This document shows positions 456-39,245 of a DNA stretch of 45,774 nt, piece after piece. Below the pieces are notes generated by a model, which did no database searches, had not been told where the DNA came from, and saw only the letters and a list, made by a program, of their open reading frames with translations. Location: positions 1 through 45,774 of the forward strand of contig CASEMX010000019.1 of NCBI GenBank assembly GCA_949289155.1, written 5' to 3'. The DNA comes from an uncultured Parabacteroides sp. (GTDB lineage: Bacteria; Bacteroidota; Bacteroidia; Bacteroidales; Tannerellaceae). Within the stretch, counting starts at the first letter, position 1, and each line of letters begins with the position of its first letter. The position numbers and the translations under genes were made by a program.

Positions 456-755
456 TGCACCGGTGCAACGTCTCTGAAGTACTACGGCGTCTATGTACCG
501 GTACAACATCGCTGAAGTAGTTCAGAGAGTCCATGTACCGGTGCAACGCATCTCAGAAGTAGTTCAGAGAGTCCATGTACCGGTGCAACACGTCTCTGAA
601 GTAGTTCAGAGGAGTCATGCACCGGTACAACACGTCTCTGAAGTAGTTCAGAGGAGTCATGCACCGGTGCAACGCGTCTCTGAAGTAGTTCAGAGGAGTC
701 ATGCACCGGTGCAACACGTCTCGGAAGTAGTTCCGAGAAGTCATGCACCGGTGCA
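456..755. repeat. Tandem array A: eight units, 42-bp period, two dyads per unit
   Basis: Eight copies of a 12-bp palindrome, TGCACCGGTGCA or one- to two-base variants such as TGTACCGGTACA, start at 456, 494, 534, 576, 618, 660, 702 and 744. The spacing is 38, 40, then 42 five times. Between palindromes lies a second inverted repeat, CTCTGAAGTAGTTCAGAG (7-bp arms, GTAG loop). Its centre is exactly 21.0 bp from the palindrome centres on both sides; for example palindrome centre 665.5, inverted-repeat centre 686.5, next palindrome centre 707.5. The last unit has both arms changed together (CTCGGAA and TTCCGAG), keeping the pairing. The first three units, nearest the DUF6261-like gene, are more degenerate. 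The 42-bp unit keeps frames open on both strands, but the symmetry points to DNA or RNA function rather than a peptide. Confidence 0.95.
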
Positions 756-761
756 CGCTTA

Positions 762-791
762 CAAAGTTAAAGATTTCTTTTAAGATACAAA
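762..791 (-). promoter_or_regulatory. Predicted Bacteroidetes-type promoter firing into array A
   Basis: On the minus strand there is TTTG (788-791), an 18-bp spacer, and TAACTTTG (762-769), matching the -33 TTTG and -7 TAnnTTTG consensus. The expected start is near 755, which is the outer edge of the last array A palindrome. Transcripts would cross all of array A before the DUF6261-like start codon at 423. Confidence 0.62.
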
Positions 792-860
792 TGGATTTCG
801 CCTTTTTCGGAGAAAATTCGGGGGGATGTCGATGGCGTCAGCGAAGACGCCGCGATTTTT

Positions 861-1283
861 TCATTCGAGCCGTTCGAATTCGTTGAAATCGCCGTCGTCG
901 TAGTAGCAAATATGGTTTGTGGCAGATATCCACGCCTCGACGGAGGCTGTGTCGCCCTCCATCGTCAGCCACAACATAGGATGCTCATAGCGGTAGGTCC
1001 CGTGCGTGACGCTGAGCGTATCCCACGCGGTCGTCGTCTCCTCATCGGGCACTAACCGGCACGTCGTCATCGTGAACGTCCCGTCGCCGAAATTCAGCTT
1101 CTCTTCTTCAACATGCATAGTAACCGGAGAATTTGATTCGGTCACATATTTCGGCGTGACATTGAGCCACTCGGAGTCCGGCAGCACTTGCGGCTCGCCG
1201 TACATCCGCATCTCCTCGCTGTCGGAGCAAGCCGTGCAGAGGAGCAGTGCCATGCTTAAAGAAATCGATAGTAAATGTTTCAT
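861..1283 (-). CDS. Small predicted lipoprotein, unknown function
   Basis: A 140-residue protein whose N-terminus, MKHLLSISLSMALLLCTACS, has a basic start, a hydrophobic stretch and a lipobox-like TAC with Cys19, so it is probably exported and lipid-anchored. The mature part is acidic, with short beta-like stretches (for example FGDGTFTMTTCRL and GTYRYEHPMLWLTMEGD), which suggests a small beta-rich fold; I do not recognise the family. The stop lies 106 bp beyond the end of array A, and a promoter is predicted at 1330-1360. The tandem orientation means that read-through could enter array A, but the separate promoter at 762-791 suggests independent expression of the array and DUF6261-like gene. 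Confidence 0.75.
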   Translation of the reverse strand: MKHLLSISLSMALLLCTACSDSEEMRMYGEPQVLPDSEWLNVTPKYVTESNSPVTMHVEEEKLNFGDGTFTMTTCRLVPDEETTTAWDTLSVTHGTYRYEHPMLWLTMEGDTASVEAWISATNHICYYDDGDFNEFERLE

Positions 1284-1329
1284 GATGTGAATTTTAGAGT
1301 AAATATTCAGGTTGCTGTATTGTTGTTCG

Positions 1330-1360
1330 CAAAGTTAAGCGGATTATCCGGAAAGGCAAG
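1330..1360 (-). promoter_or_regulatory. Predicted promoter of the small lipoprotein gene
   Basis: On the minus strand CTTG (1357-1360), a 19-bp spacer and TAACTTTG (1330-1337) match the Bacteroidetes -33/-7 pattern. It lies about 47 bp upstream of the lipoprotein start at 1283. Confidence 0.55.
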
Positions 1361-1405
1361 GGGAGGTAGCCCTGCTTTTTTGCAGAAAAAATAATTGCAG
1401 AAAAG

Positions 1406-1436
1406 TTTGGCTTGGAAAATAGAAGTCGTACCTTTG
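1406..1436 (+). promoter_or_regulatory. Predicted promoter of the NYN gene leader
   Basis: TTTG (1406-1409), a 19-bp spacer and TACCTTTG (1429-1436) fit the Bacteroidetes consensus exactly. The predicted start near 1443 is just before the folded element at 1449-1522. Confidence 0.75.
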
Positions 1437-1448
1437 CACTACGATTAC

Positions 1449-1533
1449 GCTCTTGGCGACGCGTGTCCGATAGCTGCCGTGTCGGTGCTTATTCTTGATA
1501 ATGGACACGCCAACCCCTGAGCATTATTTTTTT
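1449..1533 (+). ncRNA. Folded leader RNA with terminator-like T-tract before the NYN gene
   Basis: The first 90 nucleotides of the predicted transcript can form one long hairpin. GCTC (1449-1452) pairs with GAGC (1519-1522), TTG (1453-1455) with CAA (1511-1513), and GCGTGTCC (1461-1468) with GGACACGC (1503-1510); a smaller hairpin, CCG-TGT-CGG, lies inside. The structure is followed by a T-rich run (1524-1533), and the NYN start codon comes at 1538. This resembles an attenuator, or a small RNA with its own terminator. I recognise no known riboswitch class. The pairing is directly visible; function as an RNA is inferred. Confidence 0.55.
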
Positions 1534-1537
1534 AACT

Positions 1538-2221
1538 ATGAGAAATTCCAATTTACCTCCCATCAAAGTAGCCGTTATGATTGACGGCGGATTCTTTATA
1601 AAAAGATTCAATTCGTTATACAACAAAGATAGGGAAATGAGTGGCGAAGAAGTGGCTGAACACTTATACACGATGGCTCATAAACATGTCGGCTCGCGAA
1701 ATACACTTTATCGTATTTTCTATTATGATTGCCATCCGTTATCGAAGAAAGTCCACAACCCCATAACCGGAAAGCCTATCGATTTCAGCAAGTCTCCGGA
1801 ATATAAATTCAGGGAAGAACTCATAGAAGCATTGAAAAAGAAGCGGAAAGTAGCCCTGAGGATAGGAGAACTGAAAGACAATAACAATTGGCACATTTAT
1901 CCCAAAAGGGTAAAGGAGTTGTTAGCCGGGAAAATCAACATATCAGACCTGAAAGAAAACGATGTCTATCTTGAGGTAAGGCAAAAAGGTATCGATATGA
2001 AGATTGGAGTTGATATAGCCTCGCTTGCCTTGAAGAAGTTTGTCGATACAATCGTGCTTTTTTCCGGCGATTCCGACTTTGTCCCTGCAGCCAAATTAGC
2101 GCGAAGAGAAGGCATCGACTTTGTGTTAGATCCCATGTCTGCGAATGTGGAGCCGCAACTGTTTGAACATGTGGATGGAATGCAAAGCGTAAGACCTACT
2201 CTGAGAAAGAAAAAGAAATAG
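1538..2221 (+). CDS. NYN-domain (PIN-like, DUF88/LabA-type) protein
   Basis: A 227-residue protein with the NYN/PIN-like fold typical of metal-dependent RNases. The acidic residues expected at the active site are present: D16 in VAVMIDGGFF, D153 and D159 in KGIDMKIGVDIASLAL, and D178/D180 in FSGDSDFVP. The domain spans about residues 10-210 and ends in a basic tail, RKKKK. No signal peptide or membrane segment is present, so it should be cytosolic. In this family the enzymes are presumed to cut RNA, but substrates are mostly unknown. It is a single-gene unit: its own promoter at 1406-1436, a folded leader ending only 15 bases before the ATG, and a convergent glycosyltransferase gene 28 bp after the stop. 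The leader-plus-RNase arrangement invites comparison with RNA-antitoxin systems, but nothing here proves it. Confidence 0.88.
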   Translation: MRNSNLPPIKVAVMIDGGFFIKRFNSLYNKDREMSGEEVAEHLYTMAHKHVGSRNTLYRIFYYDCHPLSKKVHNPITGKPIDFSKSPEYKFREELIEALKKKRKVALRIGELKDNNNWHIYPKRVKELLAGKINISDLKENDVYLEVRQKGIDMKIGVDIASLALKKFVDTIVLFSGDSDFVPAAKLARREGIDFVLDPMSANVEPQLFEHVDGMQSVRPTLRKKKK

Positions 2222-2249
2222 CCCGAAGACCGCCACGAGTCCGTCGGGT

Positions 2250-3131
2250 TCATTCAGCCTCAGGCAATGTACATAGGTAGCCTAACTTATAGAAGGCGAA
2301 GAGGTATAACGAGGGGTGGTTGCCGGTCAGGTTGCGGACCAGCAGCGGCTCTGTGGCGCGGAACAGGGCGCGAATGAACGGAACCATGCCCAGCCGCTGA
2401 AGTTTCCGATGCCAGACCAACAGCCGGATATGCGGCGCGAGCCGGTCGATGTGGGGTAATAAATTCCGGATGGAGTGGCGTATTTTCCGCAAATAATCCG
2501 CCGCGTTATCGGTGGTGTGGTGGTAGACCGGGTTGTCGATATGGCAGATAGCGACGTTCGCCTGCTTCAGGCGGATGCCGAATGAGGCATCCTCGTAACC
2601 GAAGTGCATCTGCTCGTCGAACCGGACGGCATTGAACGTCGCCTTGTCCGCGAGGAAGCACATGCTGATGAACCGATCGTAGGGCTGGCGGTTCCGCTCT
2701 TCGGCAGAAGCCTCCTCCACGCGGATGCCGTATTCATACCGCAGCCGGCACATGCGCGGCTGGGCGGTACGCTCGTAGATAAATCCTCCGCACACGACCG
2801 TGTTCGGACGGGCGGCCTCCAGATAGCGGGCCAAGAAGCGGGGGTGCGCAGGGTAGGTGTCCGCGTCCATCAGAAGAAAGAGGTCATACCGCGCCTTATC
2901 GACCAAGCGGTTCCGAATCCGTGCCGGTCCCACGTTCTGTTCCATTTGGAGGTATGCGCAACAGGGGCGTTGGGCGGCAGCCCGGTTCTTCTCCTTTACC
3001 GCTTGAAGGGTAGAGGCATCGTCCGCCACAAGAATCTCGAAAGGGATATCCAACGCGACGGCTTGAGCATACAGCGCTTGCACCAAGTCCGCGCAGCACT
3101 GATTGTAAGTAGGAATCAAAATCGACAGCAT
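2250..3131 (-). CDS. Glycosyltransferase family 2
   Basis: A 293-residue GT-A enzyme that should transfer a sugar from a nucleotide-sugar donor at the inner face of the membrane. The N-terminal MLSILIPTYN strand, the DD pair at residues 37-38 and the metal-binding DAD at 89-91 (LLMDADTY) are standard GT2 signatures, and FGYEDASFGIRL near 190 matches the catalytic ED motif region. The reading frame is open further upstream, but the ATG at 3131 begins exactly at the conserved first strand and lies 4 bp after the preceding gene's stop. It is the last gene of the operon running from 7741. The acceptor and donor cannot be read from the sequence. Confidence 0.88.
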   Translation of the reverse strand: MLSILIPTYNQCCADLVQALYAQAVALDIPFEILVADDASTLQAVKEKNRAAAQRPCCAYLQMEQNVGPARIRNRLVDKARYDLFLLMDADTYPAHPRFLARYLEAARPNTVVCGGFIYERTAQPRMCRLRYEYGIRVEEASAEERNRQPYDRFISMCFLADKATFNAVRFDEQMHFGYEDASFGIRLKQANVAICHIDNPVYHHTTDNAADYLRKIRHSIRNLLPHIDRLAPHIRLLVWHRKLQRLGMVPFIRALFRATEPLLVRNLTGNHPSLYLFAFYKLGYLCTLPEAE

Positions 3132-3135
3132 AATC

Positions 3136-4377
3136 TCACGGGATAATCGAATGGAACAGGGCAGCGAATTGTCCAGCCTGCTCCTTTCGGGAATATTTCT
3201 GTAACACTTCCGGCCGGGTAGCCGCCTCCGTATAGCCTTGCTGCTGCCAAACGGAGAAGTTCTGCATGAGGAAGCCGGAGACCTCCTCCGCGTTGTTCGC
3301 CGCCAATCCCGCATTCGCCTCTTTCAACGCCTCTTCCAACACCCCTTCGTCGTTGCGGACGCAGAGGATAGGCTTCCGTACGGCAAGCGCCTCGAACAGT
3401 TTGGTGGTCATGACGCCTTTCGGTCCAGACGCGCCGGACTTGTTCGTCAGCAGCAGGATGACGGAGCTGCTGTTCAATATGTCGGGGATTTGGGTCGCCG
3501 CGACGAAGCCCTTCATCTCCATAAAGGGCAATACGCCATACCGCAGGGCCTCGGCGCGGATGATTTTCCAAGACACCTCATCGATATACCAATCGACCCG
3601 GCAGTTCTCCGGAGAGAGCTTGCCCAACGAAGACAAATGGCGCAGGCTTTCGAACAATAACGAAGGGTCGCGCATCGCCGTGCTGAGCAACCGCCCCGTA
3701 TAGGTAATGGTAAACCGGGGCGTCCGGACATGCTTCGGATAGAATATCTCCGGGTCGAAGCCATTATAGATTAATTGTACGTGCGGATTGTAGGAGCGCA
3801 ATACATTCACGTGCCAGCGGGACACGGTGGTGACGGCATCGGCTGCGGATAATGCCAGATTCCTTTTCTGCAGGCTCCTCTGCCGGAACAGATGCACGAC
3901 AAGCGGCTGCAACAGCGGGAGCTTAGGCATCTTCCGCGAGATGAATTCATCGCCCGAATACTGCTCTATGATATCGCGCAGGTCGATTACGAAAGGAATA
4001 CGGTACTTTTCCGCCAACTGCTTAGCCGCCGGCAACGGAAACGTACGGTACGTGCTGCACAACAGGACATCGAAATGCTCCTTACGGATAAGCCGTTCAG
4101 CCGCACGACGCATCTTCCAGTTCTTATAGTCGAACAGGGAAGAACACAGGAAACTTAGCCCCCACTGCACTTTCCGGATGAACGGATGCTTGTTGGTATA
4201 AAAGCTCACCTCATGCACTTCGCACAATCCTGCCAAGAATTGGAAATTCCCCGCAGGCAATTGTTCCGTGACGACGGTCGGTTGCCATCCCAACGCACGG
4301 ATATATTTGCATAAATAGCCCATGCGCGGACCGAAAGCCGGAGGGAAAATATCACAAAGAATCAGTATCCGTTTCAT
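3136..4377 (-). CDS. Glycosyltransferase family 4-like
   Basis: A 413-residue GT-B type enzyme. The start, MKRILILCDIFPPAFGPRMG, is the usual first strand and glycine-rich loop of GT4 enzymes; NGFDPEIF near residue 206 and the following TYTGRLLS segment mark the linker and second Rossmann domain. The C-terminal domain carries a KLFEALAVRKPILCV segment, the usual position of the donor-phosphate-binding E-x7-E-type motif. It overlaps the epimerase stop by four bases (ATGA), so the two genes are probably translationally coupled. Together with the epimerase and GT2 gene it likely builds a surface glycan or secondary cell-wall polymer. Confidence 0.85.
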   Translation of the reverse strand: MKRILILCDIFPPAFGPRMGYLCKYIRALGWQPTVVTEQLPAGNFQFLAGLCEVHEVSFYTNKHPFIRKVQWGLSFLCSSLFDYKNWKMRRAAERLIRKEHFDVLLCSTYRTFPLPAAKQLAEKYRIPFVIDLRDIIEQYSGDEFISRKMPKLPLLQPLVVHLFRQRSLQKRNLALSAADAVTTVSRWHVNVLRSYNPHVQLIYNGFDPEIFYPKHVRTPRFTITYTGRLLSTAMRDPSLLFESLRHLSSLGKLSPENCRVDWYIDEVSWKIIRAEALRYGVLPFMEMKGFVAATQIPDILNSSSVILLLTNKSGASGPKGVMTTKLFEALAVRKPILCVRNDEGVLEEALKEANAGLAANNAEEVSGFLMQNFSVWQQQGYTEAATRPEVLQKYSRKEQAGQFAALFHSIIP

Positions 4378-5474
4378 AAGAGCTGCAGGATTTTATACGC
4401 TGTTGAACCTTCGCCATAATCCGTGATGGCATCCCGTCGCTCAGGCTGATTGCGGAGGCAATCCAGTATGCGCTGAGGAGAAGCCCCCGCCAATTGGTTC
4501 CAGCCCGCCGTTACCGTTTCCACCCATTCCGTCTCTTCCCGCAAAGTGATGCAGGGCGTTTTATGGAAGTACGCCTCTTTCTGAATGCCGCCGGAATCGG
4601 TCAAGATACACCGTGCATTCTTCTCTAACATGACCATGTCTAAAAAGCCCAGAGGCTTGATAAGATGGATGTAGGGATTGGATAGCAAGTCCTCTTTTAA
4701 TTGGTATTTCTCCAGACAGATATGCGTGCGGGGATGCAAAGGCAGGACAATAGGGCACGAAGCTGCCGCGATTCCCTTTAATGCTTCGCATATAGACGAA
4801 AGCCGCTCGACGCTGTCTGTATTTTCTGCCCGATGGATGGTACACAGATAGAAAGATTTTGCCCGAAGATGCAATGTATCCAAGATGGAAGAGCCCTGTT
4901 CCGCCAAATCTCCGAACAGGAGCGCCGCATCATACATGATATCCCCCACATGGTGCACCCCTTCTTTAATGTTTTCAGCCGCCAAATTCTGAACAGCAGT
5001 ATGTGTCGGACAACAAAGCAAATCGGACAGGTGGTCGGTCAGAATGCGATTCAACTCTTCCGGCATCGCCTTGTTGAAGCTCCGTAATCCTGCCTCTATA
5101 TGTACGATGGGAATATGAAGTTTGCCTGCGGCTAATGCGCCTGCCAAGGTAGAATCGGTGTCCCCATAGACAACTACATAATCCGGACGGTTATTTAGTA
5201 AAATCTGTTCGATTTCAATCAGCATCTGCCCGGTCATCGCTCCATGCGAACTGTTTCCGCAGTGGAGTTGCCACGTCGGTTGGAGGATACCCATTTCAGA
5301 GAAAAAGATTTTACTCATATTCTCATCATAATGTTGCCCGGTATGGATAAGTCGCTCTTCGATAATTTGATGAGGATTCATTTTATTTTGTTCTGCGATG
5401 GCCCGGCTCAGCATAGCCGCTTTGATAAACTGAGGCCGCGCTCCGACAATCGTAATTATTTTCTTCTTTTTCAT
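4374..5474 (-). CDS. wecB: UDP-N-acetylglucosamine 2-epimerase (non-hydrolysing)
   Basis: A 366-residue protein of normal family length. It interconverts UDP-GlcNAc and UDP-ManNAc, supplying ManNAc units for surface polysaccharides. Diagnostic stretches are GARPQFIKAA (11-20), HTGQHYD (44-50), YGDTDSTLAGALAA near 130, HIEAGLRSFNKAMPEELNR near 145 and TDSGGIQKEA near 293, which binds UDP. The start at 5474 overlaps the upstream gene's stop by four bases, so the operon is tightly coupled. The presence of a ManNAc-forming enzyme suggests that the polymer contains ManNAc or ManNAcA. Confidence 0.95.
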   Translation of the reverse strand: MKKKKIITIVGARPQFIKAAMLSRAIAEQNKMNPHQIIEERLIHTGQHYDENMSKIFFSEMGILQPTWQLHCGNSSHGAMTGQMLIEIEQILLNNRPDYVVVYGDTDSTLAGALAAGKLHIPIVHIEAGLRSFNKAMPEELNRILTDHLSDLLCCPTHTAVQNLAAENIKEGVHHVGDIMYDAALLFGDLAEQGSSILDTLHLRAKSFYLCTIHRAENTDSVERLSSICEALKGIAAASCPIVLPLHPRTHICLEKYQLKEDLLSNPYIHLIKPLGFLDMVMLEKNARCILTDSGGIQKEAYFHKTPCITLREETEWVETVTAGWNQLAGASPQRILDCLRNQPERRDAITDYGEGSTAYKILQLL

Positions 5475-6760
5475 GAAATCAGTTCATTTATTAGCTGAGC
5501 ATAGAGTTGTTTGTGGTATCCTTTGTCAGCAAAAGAGGTATTGTGCCATAAAAGGACCGCTTCTCCTCCATATTGGCGAATCTTACGGAGTAACAATTGA
5601 CAATAAGCCAACGCCTCTTCATAATCCAACCCCATATACTGCGAATCACTCAACGTACAATCCATAATAGCCAACGGATGTAGAATCAGCGGAGTTAATT
5701 GTCGCGTAATCGGGTTAATCCATTGCACAGGACGGCATGTTCCCAAGCGGAATCCGCTGATATCCGCATAGCCCATCGTGAAATCTTCTGTGATTCCAGC
5801 TTTGATTAGTTTGTCAAAGTCTTCCGGTTCGCGTGACCTTAGGTAGTGATTCCGGTTTTTAGTGATGTTTTCCAGATTCCATACGTGGTCCAATATCTCT
5901 TTTTCCATGGAAATCAAAGAAGGATGCTCGCTTACGTCGTAACTGCTGTGCAATCCGAATTTGGCATCTCTGTCTTTTAATAGAGTCAGCAGCTGCTTTA
6001 TGCTGTTTTGATGGATAGAATAATAGGGTTTGTCGTACTTATGCTTCCCCCCCGCTTTTAGAAAAAACAGAGTGTCGCACTTTTGGTTGTAAATATCCTT
6101 TACTTGCTGATTTTGCTCCAATATCCATGGGAAAGTATAATAGGGGTCCTGTTCTATCGCCCCATTGAATAACTTCCACGCTTTCCAAAATCCGCCTCCT
6201 TTTAGGGTCTCTCGGATAACGCTACGGATGCTTCTGCAGAAAAACGGGGCATCTATATCGTGCGTTAACCATATTTTCCGAATTTGGGCTGTTGGTTCTT
6301 TGATTCTTATTTCTGTTTGCCGGAGCCAATTCCTTAATAGCTTCCCATATTCTTCGATAATCGGCCGATGTATGAATCCTGCCTTTACAGGAAGCGACTC
6401 TTTTCCGGGGAAACGCCCGTGTATGTCCCTTATATTCCTTTTCTGAATCTCTTCATAGCGAGTTAGCAGGAAATAACTGCTTGCAATGATATCCGCATAC
6501 ACTATTAATGTATCTTCTTGCCATTCTATTCGCGGGGAACCGAAAAGAAAGGGAACATTATCTATTTCCATTAAAGGCAGCTTCGGCAGAGATTCCGGCG
6601 TCCCATAGATATCCGGATCAAAAAAGCGCGAAGGTATGATGACGACCTTGTATTTGTGGAATAAGTTCGGATTGGAGGTATAACCAATCAGACTGCTGTA
6701 AGCCCCAGCCCGGTTAACTCCTAATAGAAAACGGAGAATGTAATTAATAATCAGATTCAT
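5471..6760 (-). CDS. Polysaccharide deacetylase-like protein with DUF7033-type N-terminus
   Basis: A 429-residue protein. The C-terminal half is a carbohydrate-esterase-4/polysaccharide-deacetylase-like barrel beginning at WLTHDIDAPFF (D168 and D170 are candidates for the catalytic and metal residues), with FGLHSSYDVSEH near 290 and a final VLLWHNTSFAD motif. The N-terminal 150 residues resemble the DUF7033 domain that precedes such barrels in Bacteroidetes. No clear signal peptide was found, so it may act in the cytoplasm or on lipid-linked glycans. It sits between the FemAB-like gene and the epimerase in a tight operon. The exact substrate is unknown. Confidence 0.8.
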   Translation of the reverse strand: MNLIINYILRFLLGVNRAGAYSSLIGYTSNPNLFHKYKVVIIPSRFFDPDIYGTPESLPKLPLMEIDNVPFLFGSPRIEWQEDTLIVYADIIASSYFLLTRYEEIQKRNIRDIHGRFPGKESLPVKAGFIHRPIIEEYGKLLRNWLRQTEIRIKEPTAQIRKIWLTHDIDAPFFCRSIRSVIRETLKGGGFWKAWKLFNGAIEQDPYYTFPWILEQNQQVKDIYNQKCDTLFFLKAGGKHKYDKPYYSIHQNSIKQLLTLLKDRDAKFGLHSSYDVSEHPSLISMEKEILDHVWNLENITKNRNHYLRSREPEDFDKLIKAGITEDFTMGYADISGFRLGTCRPVQWINPITRQLTPLILHPLAIMDCTLSDSQYMGLDYEEALAYCQLLLRKIRQYGGEAVLLWHNTSFADKGYHKQLYAQLINELIS

Positions 6761-6772
6761 GCTTTTTGAATA

Positions 6773-7741: not shown

Positions 7742-7845
7742 TCCAAATCTCCCATTATTGGGCATTAAATAGAGTTTGGGGTGGCGATAAAACAGATTCA
7801 GTGGCATCAGTAAATAGCCTTTCTGATGCCACTGTCACTATACTC

Positions 7846-9350: not shown

Positions 9351-9377
9351 AATTTTTTGTTTATAAAAAGTGATTGA

Positions 9378-9409: not shown

Positions 9410-9439
9410 CTAATGTTGAAAATTAGCTGAAGTTTTTCT

Positions 9440-17244: not shown

Positions 17245-17812
17245 GCGCGTTTGGATAGGACCGCTGGTGTTGTTGCTGTTTGCTGCCTGTTCCGAAGATT
17301 ATACGCCGAAGCCAAGGGGCTATTTCCGGATAGATTTGCCTGAAGTCAAGTATCAAATGGTGGGCGATTCGGCGCTTCCTTATGTTTTCGAGATATCTAC
17401 CGCCGCCCGGCGCGATTCCGTTTCCTCTTCCGGGCAACCGCGGGGCTGGTTGACGTTGCATTATCCGGAATGGCGGGCGACGTTATATTGCAGCTATTTG
17501 GAAATCCATCGGGAGGAGGAATTGGCAAAAGCCTTTTCCGATGTCCGCCGATTGGTCGGTAGGCAGCAATCCGTTGAGGCGATTCGGGAGAAAGCCTATC
17601 AAAATCCACAGGAACGGGTGTACGGGTCGCTTTATTTTTTGGCGGGCGATTGCGTTTCGCCGGTTCAATTTGCATTGACCGACAGTATGTCCCACTTCTT
17701 TCGCGGGGCACTCTATTATGATTTCACGCCGAAAGCCGATTCTATCGCGCCAGTCACCGACTATTTGCAAAACGATATCATTCATCTGATAGAAACCTTT
17801 TCTTGGAAATAA
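17204..17812 (+). CDS. gldD: Gliding motility lipoprotein GldD
   Basis: A 202-residue protein with a basic N-terminus, a hydrophobic stretch (IGPLVLLLFAAC) and lipobox Cys29. After it, YTPKPRGYFRIDLP is the GldD hallmark, followed by a beta-rich domain up to FYYDFTPKADS-like residues near the end. In Flavobacterium GldD is needed for gliding and secretion; non-gliding Bacteroidales keep it with gldE, so its role here is probably envelope-related. The ATG at 17204 lies inside gldE, giving an overlap of about 41 bp and probable translational coupling. An ATG at 17189 would add five residues. Confidence 0.88.
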   Translation: MKTGKYPKKNRQSRRVWIGPLVLLLFAACSEDYTPKPRGYFRIDLPEVKYQMVGDSALPYVFEISTAARRDSVSSSGQPRGWLTLHYPEWRATLYCSYLEIHREEELAKAFSDVRRLVGRQQSVEAIREKAYQNPQERVYGSLYFLAGDCVSPVQFALTDSMSHFFRGALYYDFTPKADSIAPVTDYLQNDIIHLIETFSWK

Positions 17813-17814
17813 TT

Positions 17815-18471
17815 ATGCCGCTACTTTATAAGACAACGCATCCTTTGTTGGGAATCTGGAAACTGGACGAATCGGCAGACGAACTCCGTGCCCTTTTGCC
17901 TGAATCCGAGTGGGCGGAGCTTCTTGCTGTTGACGGTACGCCCCGGCTGCAGTTGGAGGCGCGCCGGAAGGAATGGATGTCCTCCCGTCTTTTGGTGAAG
18001 GAGCTTTTGGGGCGGACGTGCGGGATTAAACATGCGGCGTCCGGTGCGCCTTTGTTGGAAGATGGTTCGTATCATATCAGCATTTCCCATACGCGCGGCT
18101 ATGTGGCTGTCCTTTTGTCGGCGCAAGGCCGGACCGGCATCGATATCGAATATTATTCCGAGCGGGTAAAGAAAATCCGGTCGCGATTCCTTTCGCCCGA
18201 AGAGGAGGCGTTTATCCTGCCGCAGTTTGAGACGGAGCAGCTGCTGCTTTGCTGGTGCGCGAAGGAGACGCTTTACAAAATCGCGGGGCTTGAGGATATC
18301 GATTTCAGTTGCCATCTGCACGTCCGTCCGTTCCGTTTTTCGTCGCCGGAAGGCTTCCTGACGGTGTACGAGACGAAAACCGCGCAGCAAAACCGTTACA
18401 TTTTGCGCTACGAAGTCCGTCCGGAATACATTTTGACCTATTTCGCACCGGAAGCATCCAATTTCAAATAA
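17815..18471 (+). CDS. 4'-phosphopantetheinyl transferase superfamily protein
   Basis: A 218-residue Sfp/AcpT-type enzyme that moves the phosphopantetheine arm of CoA onto acyl carrier proteins. GIDIEYY (108-114) and WCAKETLYK (147-155) are the two metal- and CoA-binding motifs; SYHISISHTRGYVAV (85-99) is also typical. The ATG at 17815 lies 2 bp after gldD and begins at the conserved part; an in-frame ATG at 17803 would overlap gldD. The last residues, FAPEASNFK and the stop, are encoded by bases that match array D, so the gene's 3' end and stop codon come from the repeat. Confidence 0.92.
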   Translation: MPLLYKTTHPLLGIWKLDESADELRALLPESEWAELLAVDGTPRLQLEARRKEWMSSRLLVKELLGRTCGIKHAASGAPLLEDGSYHISISHTRGYVAVLLSAQGRTGIDIEYYSERVKKIRSRFLSPEEEAFILPQFETEQLLLCWCAKETLYKIAGLEDIDFSCHLHVRPFRFSSPEGFLTVYETKTAQQNRYILRYEVRPEYILTYFAPEASNFK

Positions 18472-18793
18472 AAAAGGATGCCGACGTACGCGAGCATCTG
18501 ATTTCAACCGAAAAAAGGATGCTGGCGTACGCGGGCATCCGATTTCAACCAAAAAAAGGATGCTGACGTACGCGAGCATCTGATTTCAACCGAAAAAAGG
18601 ATGCTGGCGTACGCAGGCATCCGATTTCAACTGAAAAAAGGATGCTGACGTACGCGGGCATCCGATTTCAACCGAAAAAAGGATGCTGGCATACGCGGGC
18701 ATCCAATTTCAGCCGTAAAAAGGATGCTGGCATACGCGGGCATCCGATTTTCAACCGAAAAAAGGGTGCTGATTTTCGTCAGCACCCCATTTC
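18451..18793. repeat. Tandem array D: eight hairpin units with 41-bp period
   Basis: Units with a GGATGC...GCATCC arm pair around a GACGTACGC or GGCGTACGC core start at 18476, 18517, 18558, 18599, 18640, 18681, 18722 and 18764, with spacings of 41 (six times) and 42. Each hairpin is preceded by an A-tract and followed by ATTTCAACCG, so each looks like a bidirectional terminator. A weaker dyad, TTTCAACCGAAA, lies midway (centre 507.5 between hairpin centres 487.5 and 528.5). A partial unit, GCATCCAATTTCAA, lies inside the end of the PPTase gene (from about 18453). The last unit is divergent and is the best terminator. The array separates the convergent PPTase and aroE genes. Confidence 0.93.
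18758..18793 (-). terminator. Rho-independent terminator of aroE
   Basis: GGGTGCTGA (18764-18772) pairs perfectly with TCAGCACCC (18779-18787) around a six-base loop. On the minus strand the stem is followed by TTTTTT (18758-18763). It is the last unit of array D and lies 26 bp after the aroE stop. Confidence 0.88.
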
Positions 18794-22482: not shown

Positions 22483-22545
22483 GTTATTTGTGATAAAAGA
22501 ACCGTTATTTAAGGTAAAAGGTCTGTTATTTCTATAAAAGAACTG
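22483..22545. repeat. Three 21-bp direct repeats upstream of the tsaC-like gene
   Basis: GTTATTT followed four (or three) bases later by TAAAAG occurs three times, with GTTATTT at 22483, 22504 and 22525, so the period is exactly 21 bp. The block lies between divergent phoH and the tsaC-like gene, just upstream of the promoter at 22574-22604, and could be a set of operator sites on one face of the DNA. Confidence 0.65.
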
Positions 22546-24606: not shown

Positions 24607-24608
24607 TT

Positions 24609-26399: not shown

Positions 26400-26498
26400 T
26401 TCCGCGGATCGGCATAAAAAGTTAAAAATGTCAGACATAAGTAGCTGTTTAGAATTAGTTTATCATACGATAACAATGGGCAAAGAGAGGGAAAGCTG

Positions 26499-26680
26499 CC
26501 AACACGTGTTGGGAGGTCGTTGAGGGGCCTCAAAGTGTTGCCAACACGTGTTGGGAGGTCATTGAGGGTCCTCAAAAGCTTGCCAACACGTGTTGGGAGG
26601 TCGTCGAGGGTCCTCAAAAGCTTGCCAACACGTGTTGGGAGGTCATCGAGGGTCCTCAAAGGCTTGCCAACACGTGTTGA
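26499..26680. repeat. Tandem array B: five palindromes, exact 42-bp period
   Basis: CCAACACGTGTTGG, a perfect 14-bp palindrome, starts at 26499, 26541, 26583 and 26625; a fifth copy at 26667 ends in TTGA. The spacing is exactly 42 each time. Between the palindromes sits a second inverted repeat, TTGAGGGTCCTCAA or TCGAGGGTCCTCAA (26562-26575 in the second unit). Its centre at 26568.5 is exactly 21.0 bp from the palindrome centre at 26547.5. The array fills the convergent space between the ClC gene and recN. Its spacer half, GGTCATCGAGG..CCTCAAA, is shared with array C in the same orientation, while the palindrome differs. No promoter directed into it was recognised. Confidence 0.95.
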
Positions 26681-26754
26681 CAGATTTTCTTCGGAAGAAA
26701 ATGGTAAAAACCGGAGCAAAGCGGAGTCAAACATCTCTTACAAACAGAGTAAAA

Positions 26755-26781
26755 GACTCTTCGACTGCACTCAGGGCGACG
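26755..26781 (-). repeat. Dispersed palindrome-like intergenic element next to array B
   Basis: The reverse complement reads TCGTCGCCCTGAGTGCAGTC followed by GAAGAGTC. It closely resembles the element at 38903-38931 beside array C. Both resemble a motif I know from many bacterial genomes, with the general form GTCATTCTGAGCGCAGTCGA. Confidence 0.5.
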
Positions 26782-26890
26782 AAATAATAGCCTGATTCAG
26801 ATTTGACACACCCCACTGATTCCTATCCTTTGTGCTAAATCGGTGTTTTCAGCGTACCCCTGTGGGATAGCGAATGTTAGGGCGAAGGAT

Positions 26891-28567: not shown

Positions 28568-28571
28568 AGTG

Positions 28572-29483: not shown

Positions 29484-29515
29484 TTTACCAATAATATTAA
29501 CTCATTATTTAAAAC

Positions 29516-30727: not shown

Positions 30728-30763
30728 AATTTTTAATTTTTCATCTCTTAATTCAATTTGAAT

Positions 30764-31912: not shown

Positions 31913-31914
31913 GA

Positions 31915-32685: not shown

Positions 32686-32702
32686 TTCTTTTTCTTCAGG
32701 CT

Positions 32703-33824: not shown

Positions 33825-33907
33825 AGTAGATATTTTTCAATTTGTTAGTTTTTAATCAACTTAAAATAGGCCGCAGGAATAAGCGAACATAGCCCGTAGC
33901 CGACCTA

Positions 33908-33915
33908 CAAAGTTA
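33908..33915 (-). promoter_or_regulatory. Predicted dnaN -7 element
   Basis: TAACTTTG on the minus strand matches TAnnTTTG, and lies about 84 bp upstream of the dnaN start. Upstream is T-rich, but without an exact TTTG at N19. Confidence 0.5.
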
Positions 33916-33952
33916 GGGATTTATTTCATAGAAAAGGTATAATATGTAAATA

Positions 33953-33987
33953 AAAAAGCCCTTTCCTTAAATGGAAAGAGCTTTTTA
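33953..33987 (-). terminator. Rho-independent terminator of the rpmB-rpmG-DUF4295 unit
   Basis: AAAAAGC..CTTTCC pairs with GGAAAG..GCTTTTT around TTAAAT. The A/T tracts make it effective on either strand. It lies 18 bp after the DUF4295 stop. Confidence 0.85.
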
Positions 33988-34005
33988 TTATGCTTGTCTT
34001 TGAAA

Positions 34006-34158
34006 TTATTTTGCAAAATAATCTTTAACTGCTTCGTTCGGAATCATTTCTTCCTGGAAGATGTAAGCTCCGGTCTTCGGAGATTTTACCATCTTGATTA
34101 CTTTAGAGAAAGTACGTCCATCGCCTTTCTTAAATGTTGCAACTGCCTTTTTTGCCAT
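34006..34158 (-). CDS. DUF4295 family small protein
   Basis: A 50-residue protein read from the ATG at 34158: MAKKAVATFKKGDGRTFSKV, then IKMVKSPKTGAYIFQEEMIP, ending NEAVKDYFAK and TAA at 34006. It is basic and has no export signal. DUF4295 proteins are encoded directly after rpmB and rpmG in Bacteroidetes, which suggests a ribosome-linked role; the function is unknown. The gene lies 15 bp after rpmG and just before a strong terminator. Confidence 0.9.
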   Translation of the reverse strand: MAKKAVATFKKGDGRTFSKVIKMVKSPKTGAYIFQEEMIPNEAVKDYFAK

Positions 34159-34173
34159 CGTTCAATCTCCTAT

Positions 34174-34362
34174 TTATTTAATTTCTTTGTGCAAAGTCAT
34201 CTTTTTTAAGATTGGATTATATTTCATTAATTCCAATCTTTGCGTTGTATTTTTTCTGTTTTTAGTAGTGATATAGCGAGAAGTGCCCGGCATACCACTA
34301 TCTTTATGTTCGGTGCATTCCAAAATAACCTGAACTCTGTTACCTTTTGCTTTCTTTGCCAT
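34174..34362 (-). CDS. rpmG: 50S ribosomal protein L33
   Basis: A 62-residue ribosomal protein with the standard start [20 protein letters not shown] and the [20 protein letters not shown] core. It lacks the zinc-binding CxxC pairs, so it is the zinc-independent (C-minus) form. It lies 19 bp after rpmB and 15 bp before DUF4295, and shares the rpmB promoter. Confidence 0.97.
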
Positions 34363-34381
34363 CGTTCAATCCTCCCAATCA

Positions 34382-34621
34382 TTAAACGTTTAAATAACCC
34401 TTTTCTGCGGCCATCTTGATAGCTGCATCCAAACCTACTTTATTGATTGTGCGCAACCCCGCTGCAGATATTTTCAGGCTCACCCAACAATCTTGTTCTA
34501 CCCAATAGAACTTTTTCTCGAACAGGTTAACATTAAACTTACGTTTCGTTCTTCTCTTAGAATGGGAAACGTTGTTGCCAACCATTGCTTTTTTTCCGGT
34601 AATTTGACAAATTTTAGACAT
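34382..34621 (-). CDS. rpmB: 50S ribosomal protein L28
   Basis: A 79-residue ribosomal protein: [40 protein letters not shown], ending in [19 protein letters not shown]. It is the first gene of the rpmB-rpmG-DUF4295 unit. The start codon is about 160 nucleotides downstream of the predicted transcription start, so the mRNA has a long leader that can fold. Confidence 0.97.
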
Positions 34622-34798
34622 CTCTATCTTCTTTTTATTACATGTAATGATTCGACTTATTTTTGTAAAATGAAGATTTAGTTTTTTATTGGTACTAAAT
34701 ATCTTCTTTTGTTGATACTTCCTTCCTGAACTAGCATCACGGACAGAAAAGAAGCGGAGTAAAGTTGGATACCTTTACTGTTTACGGGGTGCAAAGAT
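34622..34798 (-). promoter_or_regulatory. rpmB promoter -7 box and long folded leader
   Basis: TATCTTTG on the minus strand (34791-34798), followed by CACCCC, is a strong Bacteroidetes -7 box. The leader from about 34785 to 34622 can form two hairpins: AGTAAAG with CTTTACT, and GAAGATATTTAGT with ACTAAATCTTC (two-base bulge). A role in feedback by a ribosomal protein is possible but not shown. Confidence 0.5.
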
Positions 34799-35021
34799 AG
34801 GAATAATTTCAATATAACCATAACAAAATCAAACTTTTTTCTTGTAAATAAGGAAATAAGCTTGAAGTATAGCTTCATATTCCGTATTTTTGTTGTTATC
34901 ATTCAATAAGGTAAGAATTTTAAGAAGTGTATTTTGCATTTTCTTTATTCCTTGGCCTTTTGTTTGCTTTAAAGTGGACGAATACTTTTTTATTGCTGAA
35001 AAAACAGAACTATTGTAGATG

Positions 35022-35064
35022 AAAAAATATCAGGCATTTCCGGAAAAATACCCGATATTTTTTT
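35022..35064 (-). terminator. Terminator after the GH20 gene
   Basis: AAAAATATC pairs with GATATTTTT around a GGC...ACC inner stem, with A and T runs on both sides. It lies 42 bp after the GH20 stop. The stretch 34799-35021 between this terminator and the rpmB promoter holds no gene that I can support. Confidence 0.65.
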
Positions 35065-35105
35065 GTAGATATCCTATATGATTTTCAATTATCTGAACTG
35101 AATTT

Positions 35106-37424
35106 TCAATAGGCGTATATCCCGGTTTCTACCGGCATGAGTTTTCCGGATGGATCGAAGATTCTCAGATGGAGGATTCCGCCATTATAATCGAAATAGC
35201 GGATCTCTATTGGATGCAATCCCTTTTTGAGGGCACGTTGTCCGGTTATCTCTTGCGGGGCATGTGGTCCATCGTTATTTGCTACGATTTCACCGTCTAT
35301 TTTTAGCCAACTTCCATCATCAGATAATAGGGCAAAAGTGTAAACCCCATCGGTCGGAGCATTGAAATATCCGGTAATGATTAGCCCAATATCTCCTTTT
35401 ACGCTGGAAGGAATCATCACGTCGGGAATTTCGTACGTTCCTTTCTTCGGGAAATTCTCAATCTTCGTACATGAATCTGGTCGTCCTTCATACCAAATGG
35501 CTTGCAATCCGTTTTTCCGTGGGTTGACATTTTCTGCAGCTGGCGCATAATCTTGTTTCAGATAACTTGTTTTGAAACTATCGCTCCCTTTTCCGTTCGT
35601 TCGGAAGGATCGGAAGATAAAATCAGTGGATTCGTCGATTTTTATAGCGCCCGAATAACATGGGGATTCCAATGTCGGTTGGGTTCCATCCGTTGTATAA
35701 TGAATTTCAACATTAGGGTCAGGAGAAAAAATCTTGACTTCCGTTTCCCCAACAAAGGCGTTTATTGTATGAAACCCCTCCAAATCCGGCATACGATAGT
35801 TAATATCCATCAGGTTCAGGCGGGGAAATTGTCCAATCATTCGTCTTTGGAAATCTTCCCAGTACATTTGTTCCGGATTGCTCCAACCGATTTCTGCGAT
35901 TGCCAGCATCCGTGGAACCGCCATATACTGCATTCGTTCGCGAGAAGGAATCCATTCGCACCAAATATTGCCTTGTACTCCTAAAATTAATGCTTTTTGC
36001 GCTTCGCTTAGTGAATCCGGAGCCAAAGTATATTCATATATTCCACGCACCGAACTTTTATCTTGCTGATAATCTAAGTAAAAATGGGCATTCGGACAAT
36101 AAATCACTTGGTTTCCATGGGCTGTTGCCGTCGGGACAGCCTCCGGACTCCAACTTCTCCACCATGCAACGGTAGCAGTCTCCGATAATCCGCCATCAAT
36201 AATCTCGTCCCAGCCGATTAATTGCTTGCCATGTTCGTTAAAATAGGCTTCCATCTGGTGAACGAACCACGATTGCAGCTCTTCTTCCGATTTGAGCCTG
36301 TTGTCTTTCATACGTTTTTGGCAATCGGGGCACTTTTTCCAATTGATTTTTTCCACTTCGTCTGCACCTAAATGGACATATTTATAGGGGAATAGGGGAA
36401 ATATCTCGGCATATATGTTTTTACAGAACTCCAATGCGGAATCTTTACCCGGGCATACCGGCGACGAAAACATTTCTCCCCATCCGGTCTGCCGGAAACA
36501 GGAGACTCCGGTATAATTACTTACAGCAGCCAACATATGCCCTGGCATATCTATTTCCGGAATGATGTCTATTCCCCGTTCGGCAGCATATCTTACGACC
36601 TCTTTGATATCTTCTTGCGTATAATATCCGCCATAAAGCGTATCGCCCTGTATGATTTTCAGTTTTTCCTCCGGAATATGGAAATCCGGATTGTTTTCCG
36701 CTTCAGCACGACGCATACATTCGCGGTCTTGTGCGTTGAACGGCCGCCATGCACCCTTTTCTGTCAACAGCGGATAGCGTTTGATTTCTATACGCCAGCC
36801 TTGGTCATCGGTCAAATGCCAATGGAATTTGTTCATCTTGTATAATGCCATCAAATCTAACAACTCTTTTACCTCTTCTTTCGACGAGAAGTGGCGAGAT
36901 ACATCCAGCATTAGTCCGCGCCATTGGAAACGTGGTTCATCGGACACGGAAATTGCCGGGATTGTCCAGACTTTATCCGGAATAACCTCGGTCGATTCTA
37001 TTTCGTCGGGAAGTAATTGGCGGATTGTCTCTATTCCGGCTATAATACCCGGATAATTGCTGGAAGATACTTGTATTTTCTGGTTTTCGACCTGCAGGGA
37101 ATAGCTGCCCTCTTTCGATGGAGAATCCGTCGTTAGGGATAGGTTGATATTTCCATTGGTTCCTTCTTGTGTTTTGAAGAAATATCCTGTTGAGCGACTC
37201 AATAAAGTCGATAAGTAATTAGCAGCTGGTTTTAATGAAGTATCGGAATAGCAGATACTCATGCCATCTTTTAGGATGAACTGTCCGTTCATCATCGTCA
37301 TCGAGCGAGGAAGCGGGATAATATTAACGGCATCCGGTTCGGGGTTCGGCGTATTTGTACAGGCCACTTGCATCAGCATTGCACCGGCAACGGCACACAT
37401 AGTGAATAAATTCTTATACATCAT
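35106..37424 (-). CDS. Beta-N-acetylhexosaminidase, GH20, with PA14-like C-terminus
   Basis: A 772-residue lipoprotein; lipobox MQVAC with Cys22 is near the start. Residues ~30-160 are the GH20b N-terminal domain (PLPRSMTMMNGQFIL). Residues ~165-520 are the catalytic barrel, with FQWRGLMLDVSRHF, HWHLTDDQGWRIEIK and the catalytic D355-E356 pair in HLGADEVEK. A chitobiase-type C-terminal segment (EIHYTTDGTQPTLESPCYSGA) follows at ~600, then a PA14-like beta domain from ~660 (DGVYTFALLSDDGSWLKIDG). It should remove terminal GlcNAc or GalNAc from glycans at the cell surface. It follows DUF5103 after 31 bp and precedes a terminator. Confidence 0.95.
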   Translation of the reverse strand: MMYKNLFTMCAVAGAMLMQVACTNTPNPEPDAVNIIPLPRSMTMMNGQFILKDGMSICYSDTSLKPAANYLSTLLSRSTGYFFKTQEGTNGNINLSLTTDSPSKEGSYSLQVENQKIQVSSSNYPGIIAGIETIRQLLPDEIESTEVIPDKVWTIPAISVSDEPRFQWRGLMLDVSRHFSSKEEVKELLDLMALYKMNKFHWHLTDDQGWRIEIKRYPLLTEKGAWRPFNAQDRECMRRAEAENNPDFHIPEEKLKIIQGDTLYGGYYTQEDIKEVVRYAAERGIDIIPEIDMPGHMLAAVSNYTGVSCFRQTGWGEMFSSPVCPGKDSALEFCKNIYAEIFPLFPYKYVHLGADEVEKINWKKCPDCQKRMKDNRLKSEEELQSWFVHQMEAYFNEHGKQLIGWDEIIDGGLSETATVAWWRSWSPEAVPTATAHGNQVIYCPNAHFYLDYQQDKSSVRGIYEYTLAPDSLSEAQKALILGVQGNIWCEWIPSRERMQYMAVPRMLAIAEIGWSNPEQMYWEDFQRRMIGQFPRLNLMDINYRMPDLEGFHTINAFVGETEVKIFSPDPNVEIHYTTDGTQPTLESPCYSGAIKIDESTDFIFRSFRTNGKGSDSFKTSYLKQDYAPAAENVNPRKNGLQAIWYEGRPDSCTKIENFPKKGTYEIPDVMIPSSVKGDIGLIITGYFNAPTDGVYTFALLSDDGSWLKIDGEIVANNDGPHAPQEITGQRALKKGLHPIEIRYFDYNGGILHLRIFDPSGKLMPVETGIYAY

Positions 37425-37455
37425 TTTTCCTCCTTATTATTTGTGTGTTGAGTTC

Positions 37456-38721
37456 TTATTCGTTATTACGTTGTCTGAATTGTTGGTAGCCGATTAGGCG
37501 GTCGTAGCGTGCGCCCATCGGATGGTAATATATATATATGGTATATTCATTTTCTGTTTCGTGGAAATCCCCTTCGATGCCTCCGGTGTTTCCTACGGTT
37601 TGTCCATCCGGCACATAGAGATATTGGTAATTGTAGTTGCCCTGTTTCATTAGGATAGCCTTTTCATACTGTTGAGTATCCGGATTATAAATCATTTCGC
37701 TCTCTTTATTGAAGAGATTCTGTACGAAGTCGCCATTCAGATATACTTTTCCTTGTTTGGCTTCCGGCATGGCAAGGGTAAAGTGTACGATATAATAATC
37801 CGCTTCGATATCCGGTTCGTCGCATTGGCTGCAGGCCGGATAGAATCGTCCGTTTTGGTCCTGATCATATTCATAAGTCAGGAGACTGCTGGGATGGTCA
37901 ATCATTAAATCGACATGATAATAAGGATTAAAATAGGAGATTTGTTCGACGCGCATACCATTATATCGGTTTGTCAGGAACTCCATCCTGCGATATTCGT
38001 TTCCTGCAGGGAATATCAGGCTGCGATTATTCTCATAAACGATGCGGTCGTTCAGTATCGCTGTCGGATGTACTTCCGTTACAGCATTATCCGGTCGGTT
38101 ATCCTGCATGACCCGAATCTTTAAATCTGTCTGCGGATAGGTTATCTGGAAGTTTTTCTTCAAGACGGTGAAGTTTACCTGCTGGTGCTTTTGGTAAGTA
38201 TCTATTAATGTATTTCCGGTAATCTCTGCAGCAATCTCCACTTGTGGTTCCACAACCGAGAAACATGCCGTCAACACCGTCTCGTCCGGGATATCTTCTT
38301 TGTAAATGCGGACAACATAGTTGCCGGATACCTTGAATTGGATATCGTCGTTCGGCAAGAAGAGGCGATAGTTGGTATATTGAACCGTTGTATTGAACGA
38401 AGAGGCAAAATCGTCGATGGTTAGTCCTTGAAATCCCTGCAAGTATTCCAACTGGCTAAGCGAAGAGGGTTGCCAATTGGCATCACAGTGGATGATGTTG
38501 TACGCATATCGTTCGTAGTTCGGCGTCATGTCGTCGAAATTAATCTCTATCTGTTCATCTGTGCCCAATGTGATGACCGGGACAGTGAATATATTGTCAG
38601 ACTGTTTCACTTGCAGCGTCTTAATACGCTTGGGTTGAAATATTTCGGTGCGGTAGGAGGATTGGGCATTCATGCCATATAGCCATAAACAACCTAAAAG
38701 TAGCCAATAAACTCTTCTCAT
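37456..38721 (-). CDS. DUF5103 protein (type IX secretion system plug-like)
   Basis: A 421-residue secreted protein with signal peptide MRRVYWLLLGCLWLYGMNA followed by QSSYRTEIFQPKRIKTLQ. The EINFDDMTPNYERYAYNIIHCDANWQPSSL stretch near 60 is typical of DUF5103, and the C-terminal half contains LAMPEAKQGKVYLNGDF and a GxRYDRLIGYQQF end. The first domain of this family is known as the Plug of the SprA/Sov type IX translocon in Flavobacterium; its role in non-gliding Bacteroidales is less clear. It precedes the GH20 gene with a 31-bp gap, and array C lies about 225 bp upstream of its start. Confidence 0.88.
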   Translation of the reverse strand: MRRVYWLLLGCLWLYGMNAQSSYRTEIFQPKRIKTLQVKQSDNIFTVPVITLGTDEQIEINFDDMTPNYERYAYNIIHCDANWQPSSLSQLEYLQGFQGLTIDDFASSFNTTVQYTNYRLFLPNDDIQFKVSGNYVVRIYKEDIPDETVLTACFSVVEPQVEIAAEITGNTLIDTYQKHQQVNFTVLKKNFQITYPQTDLKIRVMQDNRPDNAVTEVHPTAILNDRIVYENNRSLIFPAGNEYRRMEFLTNRYNGMRVEQISYFNPYYHVDLMIDHPSSLLTYEYDQDQNGRFYPACSQCDEPDIEADYYIVHFTLAMPEAKQGKVYLNGDFVQNLFNKESEMIYNPDTQQYEKAILMKQGNYNYQYLYVPDGQTVGNTGGIEGDFHETENEYTIYIYYHPMGARYDRLIGYQQFRQRNNE

Positions 38722-38902
38722 ATTATGTATTCTCTTATTGTTCGATGTGCAAAGTAACGAATAATTTTAATCTGTCGCTATATTTTCTTACTTTTACGCG
38801 CCTTTAAATTGAACGCCAACGGAGGGGTTCTTTTTGCCCGGCAGTATGTTGCCTGCAGCGGCAGCGGCGATGTACTATAGATATTGGATGAAATGAGGGG
38901 GG

Positions 38903-38931
38903 GTCATTCCGAGCGCGGTCGAGGAATCTCC
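38903..38931 (+). repeat. Dispersed palindrome-like intergenic element next to array C
   Basis: GTCATTCCGAGCGCGGTCGA followed by GGAATCTC. The same kind of element occurs, diverged and in the opposite orientation, at 26755-26781 beside array B. I know similar motifs from many unrelated bacterial genomes; no function is assigned here. Confidence 0.55.
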
Positions 38932-38945
38932 TATTCAATTTGCCA

Positions 38946-39245
38946 AAACGTTTAGAGAGGTTATCGAGGTCCCTCAAAAGGCTGCAAAACGTTTAGGCGG
39001 TCATTGAGGTCCCTCAAAAGCTTGGCAAAACGTTTAGACAGGTCATTGAGGTCCCTCAAAAGCTTGGCAAAACGTTTAGACAGGTCATCGAGGTCCCTCA
39101 AAGTGCTGCCAAAACGTTTAGGGAGGTCATCGAGGTCCCTCAAAGTGCTGCCGAAACGTTTAGACAGGTCATCGAGGGTCCTCAAAGTGCTGCCAAAACG
39201 TTTAGACAGGTCATCGAGGGTCCTCAAAGGCTCGGCAAAACGTTT
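38946..39245. repeat. Tandem array C: eight units, 42-bp period
   Basis: The palindrome AAACGTTT starts at 38946, 38987, 39028, 39070, 39112, 39154, 39196 and 39238, with spacings of 41, 41, then 42 five times. The other dyad, TTGAGGTCCCTCAA or TCGAGGTCCCTCAA, lies halfway (39046-39059, centre 39052.5, against palindrome centre 39031.5: exactly 21.0 bp). The backbone GGTCATCGAGG..CCTCAAA matches array B in the same orientation, while the palindrome core is different (AACGTT here, CACGTG in B). Units 6 and 7 carry the GT loop typical of B, whereas the other units carry TC. The array lies in the divergent gap between DUF5103 and lipB. Confidence 0.95.

Follow-up and report, generated by a model that had tools for sequence, protein, structure and literature searches.

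Introduction

The closest described systems to the repeats reported here are two families of minisatellite miniature inverted-repeat transposable elements (MITEs) of Porphyromonas gingivalis, BrickBuilt (23-nt) and PgRS/464 (41-nt), with 19 BrickBuilt copies in ATCC 33277 (PMC4596501). In the parts of PMC4596501 covered here, BrickBuilt and PgRS have one sequence each, a leader and a tail, and IS5-like terminal inverted repeats, and a link to genes of the DUF6261 family (PF19775) is not described. We analysed a window of 45,774 nucleotides, contig CASEMX010000019.1 (assembly GCA_949289155.1) of an uncultured Parabacteroides sp., together with further DNA of this genome and of relatives, and describe palindromic tandem arrays of the 42-bp class that stand upstream of DUF6261 genes. 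As far as those parts of PMC4596501 allow comparison, both systems consist of intergenic tandem minisatellites in Bacteroidales, with 22/23/41-nt periods and predicted stem-loops. Unlike BrickBuilt and PgRS as presented there, the arrays of this genome come in dozens of sequences unrelated to each other, frequently have two dyads in a unit and are linked to a protein gene. The BrickBuilt-type end motif (GAGACC..TTGCA) occurs 8 times in the window at up to 2 mismatches, against 9.9 expected, and no occurrence adjoins any of the window arrays A–D.

REP (repetitive extragenic palindromic) and REPIN elements with their transposase RAYT (TnpA-REP) are palindromic intergenic repeats, some beside the gene and others dispersed. 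The arrays studied here show the same arrangement, in that 14 of 75 orphan arrays match a gene-linked unit. They differ in that DUF6261 has no Y1 (HUH) transposase domain, dyads often lie half a period apart and the sequence differs from array to array; Y1_Tnp was found in a single gene on another contig (C32:373-720). CRISPR arrays are tandem, partly palindromic repeats of similar length; unlike them, the present arrays have no spacers, and their units are contiguous, head to tail. We know of no function for DUF6261. A literature search found no description of a DUF6261-array pairing and the family named only in work on Streptococcus oralis, as far as the accessible part of that work goes.

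Results

Arrays of the 42-bp class stand upstream of DUF6261 genes

The window begins inside a DUF6261 gene (1–423, minus strand), of which the first 141 codons are present up to the contig end. Array A (456–755, no strand assigned) lies upstream, separated from the start codon of this gene by 32 bp. At the array's distal edge, TAACTTTG (762–769, minus strand) reads towards the gene and matches TAnnTTTG, which we take to be the Bacteroidales −7 motif. The genome contains 26 DUF6261 matches. In an initial set of 13 loci, arrays were found upstream of 12. At a distance of at most 300 bp, a 42-class array lies upstream of DUF6261 at 22 of 25 loci of the own genome, 16 of 22 of the genus and 19 of 27 of an order sample (or 18 of 25 once the genus mate G139 is set aside). 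Within the same distance downstream, the three sets gave 0/22, 0/25 and 0/26. The overall difference, 57/74 upstream versus 0/73 downstream, is highly significant (Fisher 1e-25). Loci with less than 300 bp of sequence on the relevant side were excluded, as was L220 from the own count, which starts at a contig end; the relatives' loci, for DUF6261 and for the HU-type genes below, are the best-scoring ones returned and not a random draw. The own DUF6261 genes lacking a 42-class array are L217, L222 and L230 (weak period-21 match only).

This linkage reaches beyond the genus. DUF6261 is present in 14 of the 119 order-sample genomes, own and G139 counted, and 10 of the 13 besides our own have an upstream array at at least one examined locus; the period of these arrays stays at 40–43 bp in several families of the order. 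As expected of an operator array, the position upstream of the gene is consistent. Prevotella nigrescens K8O81_RS10460 and Parabacteroides distasonis UNS60_RS02695 carry arrays at or upstream of the annotated start, and P. distasonis UNS60_RS07185 has none there. Within the own-genome sample, an array stands no more than 220 bp from the start of each of the 8 DUF6261 genes; the same is true of 40 of 589 other genes, which look varied by their first residues. On the gene strand, TAnnTTTG is distal to the array at 9 of 39 loci, several of them related copies, and proximal at 6 of 39; on the opposite strand it is distal at 1.

The abundance of arrays follows that of the gene. Of 34 genomes of the genus, 27 carry DUF6261, and copy numbers run from 0 to 52. 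In 21 genomes with at least 19 kb sampled each, copy number and array density are correlated (rho 0.886), kinship being ignored; for other repeats rho is 0.03, and the 20–25-bp class follows weakly (0.37, p 0.10). No array was present in 353,058 bases of genomes with at most 4 copies, nor in 60,000 bases of two genomes with 5 and 7 copies. Genomes with at least 9 copies, our own excluded, hold 30 arrays in 636,882 bases. G011 goes against this trend, with 14 copies and just 1 array in 100,000 bases.

Phage or plasmid cargo was considered as a setting for the gene and rejected, as one DUF6261 query gave no match in 50,697 phage records and another matched 3 of 72,556 plasmid records. In two of these three plasmid records, a 41/42-bp array is found at the annotated start or a short way upstream.

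Half-period dyads and covariation

The own-genome sample comprises 845,564 bases, 29% of the 2.88-Mb Parabacteroides draft, with the window included. It consists of the two largest contigs seen and of contigs already known to hold array matches, so that the array density of 9.3 per 100 kb may be high. Genes were called as open reading frames scored by codon usage. Tandem Repeats Finder (TRF), also used for array detection in the window, returned 199 non-redundant arrays with periods clustering at 21–24 (63 arrays) and 40–44 (60), and only 4 between 25 and 39; array classes were set after this first period histogram had been seen. The 83 arrays with a base period of 39–45 form 49 sequence families. 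Of 79 42-class arrays, 64 lie between predicted genes, 4 inside one and 11 at the edge of a stretch, without orientation preference (p 0.56). A general terminator or promoter role was rejected because codirectional, convergent and divergent gaps carry arrays in proportions (35/15/14) like those of all gaps of at least 250 bp (103/31/40). A very long array, with about 33 units of 42 bp, occurs on one Tannerellaceae contig (L140:554-2123).

A periodic sequence with one reflection axis necessarily has another half a period away. As the half-period spacing is therefore partly arithmetic, the two axes were scored on nearly disjoint base pairs, restricted to those within 10.5 bp of each axis. On raw units, the half-period axis ranks in the top 5% (p<=0.05) in 21 of 43 families (binomial 1.7e-16) and at 0.5 or worse in 6 of 43. 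When dyad scores are aligned on the strongest dyad and averaged across 40 families, the maximum falls exactly at the half period (3.46; other offsets 1.2 to 2.1). The symmetry extends about 8 bp from each axis and weakens in the linkers. Among gene-linked arrays, the half-period dyad is in the top 5% in 10 of 38.

Across 4,179 consensus-paired cells we count 264 single changes, 32 compensated doubles and 7 uncompensated doubles. The A-family set comprises 44 distinct units from 11 loci, limited to units of exactly 42 bp between ACCGGT cores, and was scored with a tool that counts G-U as paired. Here, 87.4% of cells are paired, 76 cells show double changes versus 36 in shuffles, and the covariation score is 0.319 versus 0.123 shuffled (0/500 shuffles) and at most 0.088 when slid by 1–3 columns. 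Unlike the other four measures, the count of pairs in which both members have changed (8) is no higher than in shuffles (7.1; 142/500). A tolerance of G-U over A-C in stems was not found on the read-through strand of codirectional arrays (GT 34 / AC 56), and sense-strand mismatches of DUF6261-linked arrays show no preference for G-U either (GT 40 / AC 44). The arbitrary contig plus strand gives GT 99 / AC 67, so strand asymmetries are noisy. As the dyads covary without G-U excess, action at the DNA level is likelier than RNA hairpins, and the data speak for a constraint, or else a mutational process, at the level of DNA rather than for the latter.

HU-type genes carry a short-period version

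A parallel arrangement is seen at genes matching PF18291/PF14848, which we take to encode DNA-binding proteins of the HU/IHF superfamily (HU-HIG). The own genome has 20 PF18291 matches, 16 of them over the cut-off. At 12 of 19 evaluable own loci (L321–L323, L329, L330, L332, L335, L337 and L339–L342), palindromic arrays with a period of 21–24 bp, or doubled to 42–48, end 28–128 bp upstream of the gene. Of the background genes with room, drawn from the own genome only, 48 of 267 have such arrays (p 1.6e-5). The HU genes of relatives carry arrays of 20–25 or 40–50 bp in 10 of 25 cases (p 0.008 versus this wider background, 1e-4 versus the 20–25-bp class alone, 28/267). The HU-HIG genes resemble the DUF6261 pairing in being multi-copy and in often having arrays upstream, here with one dyad per 21–24 bp, and belong to a DNA-binding superfamily. 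The two differ in that the HU-HIG arrays are short-period, whereas DUF6261 is predicted all-helical and paired with a different array class.

In the DUF6261 proteins scanned, only PF19775 is above Pfam cut-offs, with no transposase match. The Foldseek and VIA lists have no DNA-binding fold standing out, and a PDB sequence profile search returned a single match with E 3.2. In the relatives L233 and L260 the protein has an extra C-terminal stretch, which in L260 resembles DUF4469 (E 1.4e-4, just under the cut-off).

Array sequences turn over

Gene-linked array sequences vary between genes. In the apparently orthologous pair L237/L242, whose proteins are 89% identical and whose flanks are similar by eye, the two arrays share one dyad but have different palindromes in place of the other. 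Among the 75 orphan arrays of the own-genome sample, 14 reach a match of at least 70% to a gene-linked unit of this genome, compared with 0/75 for shuffled units and 0/75 for the units of 15 relatives; 61 of 75 match none of the 22 own gene-linked units tested. Four loci carry a composite CACGTG+AACGTT array; their outer flanks are for the most part unrelated, the flank at L012 resembling a tail that several CACGTG arrays share on one side, among the matches listed. The CACGTG/AACGTT type is found in 0 of 22 own gene-linked units of this draft genome, and the CACGTG array-pair pattern occurs 0 times in IMG/VR and in 0 of 58 other genomes.

The arrays of the window

The original prediction described three arrays, A, B and C, with one geometry, a period of 42 bp and dyads always 21.0 bp apart. 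A fourth array, D, had been overlooked. Array A consists of 42-bp units with the dyads TGCACCGGTGCA and CTCTGAA-GTAG-TTCAGAG. Array B (26492–26679) has 42-bp units with CCAACACGTGTTGG and GAGGGTCCTC, and array C (38940–39250) has 42-bp units, two of them 41, with AAACGTTT and GAGGTCCCTC. For all three, TRF confirms the period of 42. Single steps deviate from it, since the core-to-core distances are 38, 40 and then 42 five times in A, 42 four times in B, and 41, 41 and then 42 five times in C. Likewise, the spacing of 21.0 bp applies to most units but not to all: to 5 of 7 in A (by best second dyad; the others 27.0 and 19.0), 4 of 4 in B, where two are tied with another axis, and 6 of 7 in C, where three are tied and the remaining one is 20.0. 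Array D (18454–18771) has 41-bp units with GCATCC-N17-GGATGC and GCGTACGC, dyads 20 to 20.5 bp apart. As with A, no strand is assigned to B, C or D. The single geometry across unrelated sequences recurs in many array families of the genome; as a general rule, the spacing is the half period, hence 20.5 bp for 41-bp arrays, and it is not universal. The proposed swappable palindrome also holds, because dyads are exchanged as modules with the rest of the unit kept: outside its palindrome, the C unit largely resembles that of B, the same relation as in L237/L242.

Sequence searches found copies of the B/C, A and D families outside the window in the same genome. Array D starts 18 bp within the 3' end of a predicted gene (17803–18471), and its family has at least 7 further sites. 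The tail common to several CACGTG-family arrays of the genome lies one-sided to array B at 26681–26751 (no strand assigned). Array B is possibly at a synteny break (26400–26890). In 22 of 25 relative loci, RecN is 4 to 5.3 kb away from DnaN, the other 3 being too short to show it. In the window, the neighbour of RecN across array B is ClC, an adjacency seen in none of the relative loci over the stretches examined. The best named relatives of the window DnaN are Parabacteroides, with 88% to Candidatus P. intestinavium. A short repeat with a 21-bp period and three copies occupies a divergent gap at 22483–22543.

Contigs C8, C38 and C57 end at CACGTG arrays, and C18 and C19, the latter being the window, end inside DUF6261 copies at codon 141. 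As contig ends fall at these repeats, the draft breaks there and arrays are probably undercounted.

Discussion

What this work supports best is that DUF6261 genes and arrays of locked period, often with dyads, are linked in cis and that this linkage is conserved. The arrays are tied to protein families, DUF6261 and the HU-type DNA-binding genes, and the 40–43-bp period upstream of DUF6261 was recovered in several families of the order, with symmetry less kept. The DUF6261-linked arrays most likely act at the DNA level. Our preferred reading, to which we give about even chances, takes the arrays to be DNA dyad elements of locked period that are at home in the control region upstream of DUF6261 genes. 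It is carried by their position and period, by the symmetry in many arrays, by covariation and by the correlation of density with copy number. From these we infer regulation, structural recognition and a kind of binder. With each half-unit, about every two helical turns, the DNA would present a site of two-fold symmetry, which would let a symmetric protein assembly, or small extruded hairpins, recur on the same side of the helix. Instead of a single sequence, the spacing would be conserved, often together with mirror symmetry. The array would probably act in cis on the DUF6261 promoter. Arrays without the gene, such as B, C and D, would be dispersed copies that may act on, or just sit between, other genes. 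For the version with one dyad per 22 bp, HU-type proteins would be the likeliest kind of binder.

Several observations weigh against this reading. The array within 300 bp is missing at 3/25 own, 6/22 genus and 8/27 order DUF6261 genes, and 75 of the 83 base-period arrays of the own sample have no adjacent DUF6261 gene. Since the −7 motif is sometimes distal and sometimes proximal, the arrays have no fixed place with respect to the promoter. Of 38 gene-linked arrays, 16 lack the second dyad or have it out of position (rank p >=0.5), and in the order sample the first dyad is significant on the consensus unit in 6 of 19 arrays and the half-period dyad in 4 of 19. With dyads so often missing, period and position are better conserved than symmetry. 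DUF6261 is a predicted helical bundle, mostly acidic, with a core net charge averaging −6, and Foldseek gives it no significant match, which makes direct DNA binding by DUF6261 doubtful. Lastly, the similarity of units cannot be predicted from the identity of the proteins (Mantel rho 0.07, p 0.07, 34 loci).

The original prediction had suggested sites for a protein of variable specificity. We regard as improbable the form of this proposal in which the DUF6261 (or HU) paralogues are such a family, every one recognising a palindrome of its own. Palindromes are indeed gene-specific and orphans share them, and the HU-type genes belong to a DNA-binding superfamily and often have their own short arrays. 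The Mantel test, however, is not significant, so strict protein-palindrome co-evolution was rejected; one dyad is replaced beside 89%-identical proteins at seemingly the same locus, a turnover that leaves a reading of one protein per palindrome unsupported, and the DUF6261 core is acidic. The other function then suggested, a hairpin RNA family, is weakened by the lack of G-U excess. In its specific form, in which DUF6261 messages would carry the array as RNA hairpins in their 5' leader, it appears very unlikely, even though the gene-strand TAnnTTTG lies just distal to the array at 9 loci versus 1 on the other strand, the A family covaries, and the four window arrays have a strong predicted fold-back on the plus strand (z −3.1 to −9.4 with DNA parameters). 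The mismatches in sense and codirectional arrays argue against it, as do the 6 of 39 loci with the motif between array and gene, the arrays in convergent and divergent gaps, and the lack of any match to Rfam models at gathering score in the window.

Dispersal and mutation offer further explanations. In a selfish system of the REP/RAYT kind, DUF6261 or a partner would spread the arrays, with gene-linked arrays as autonomous and orphans as non-autonomous copies. The orphans matching own gene-linked units, absent with shuffled or relatives' units, the composite array at four loci with mostly unrelated outer flanks, the shared tail among the listed CACGTG matches and the joint increase of copy number and array density are consistent with it. 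Yet DUF6261 has no transposase match and the only Y1 transposase gene is on another contig, arrays stand upstream of the gene and never downstream (0/73), and 61 of 75 orphans are unmatched; we consider such a system rather unlikely. Mutation alone, where hairpin-driven slippage, template switching at quasi-palindromes and unequal crossing-over make and homogenise arrays devoid of function, would account for turnover with Watson-Crick symmetry and no G-U tolerance for the missing orientation preference, and for half-period dyads as a side effect of reflection symmetry. It leaves unexplained why 57 of 74 DUF6261 genes have the array upstream and 0 of 73 downstream, why the sampled DNA of genomes with up to 7 copies holds none, and why the 40–43-bp period persists upstream of DUF6261 across several families of the order. 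We judge this explanation unlikely.

Going beyond the preferred reading of dyad elements at home upstream of DUF6261, we tentatively propose a possible two-part Bacteroidales locus of protein gene and array that would inherit a geometry, about four helical turns per unit with a dyad every two, while its letters turn over freely. Such DNA would be read by symmetry and spacing, and the HU-type genes would have a parallel two-turn version. The present findings connect a class of minisatellites that is puzzling in Bacteroidales with named gene families and give DUF6261 its first genomic correlate. They may help to explain the high repeat load of such genomes, their assembly breaks and perhaps synteny breaks at repeats. 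The arrays represent a clean natural system for asking whether cells recognise DNA by symmetry and spacing rather than by letters.

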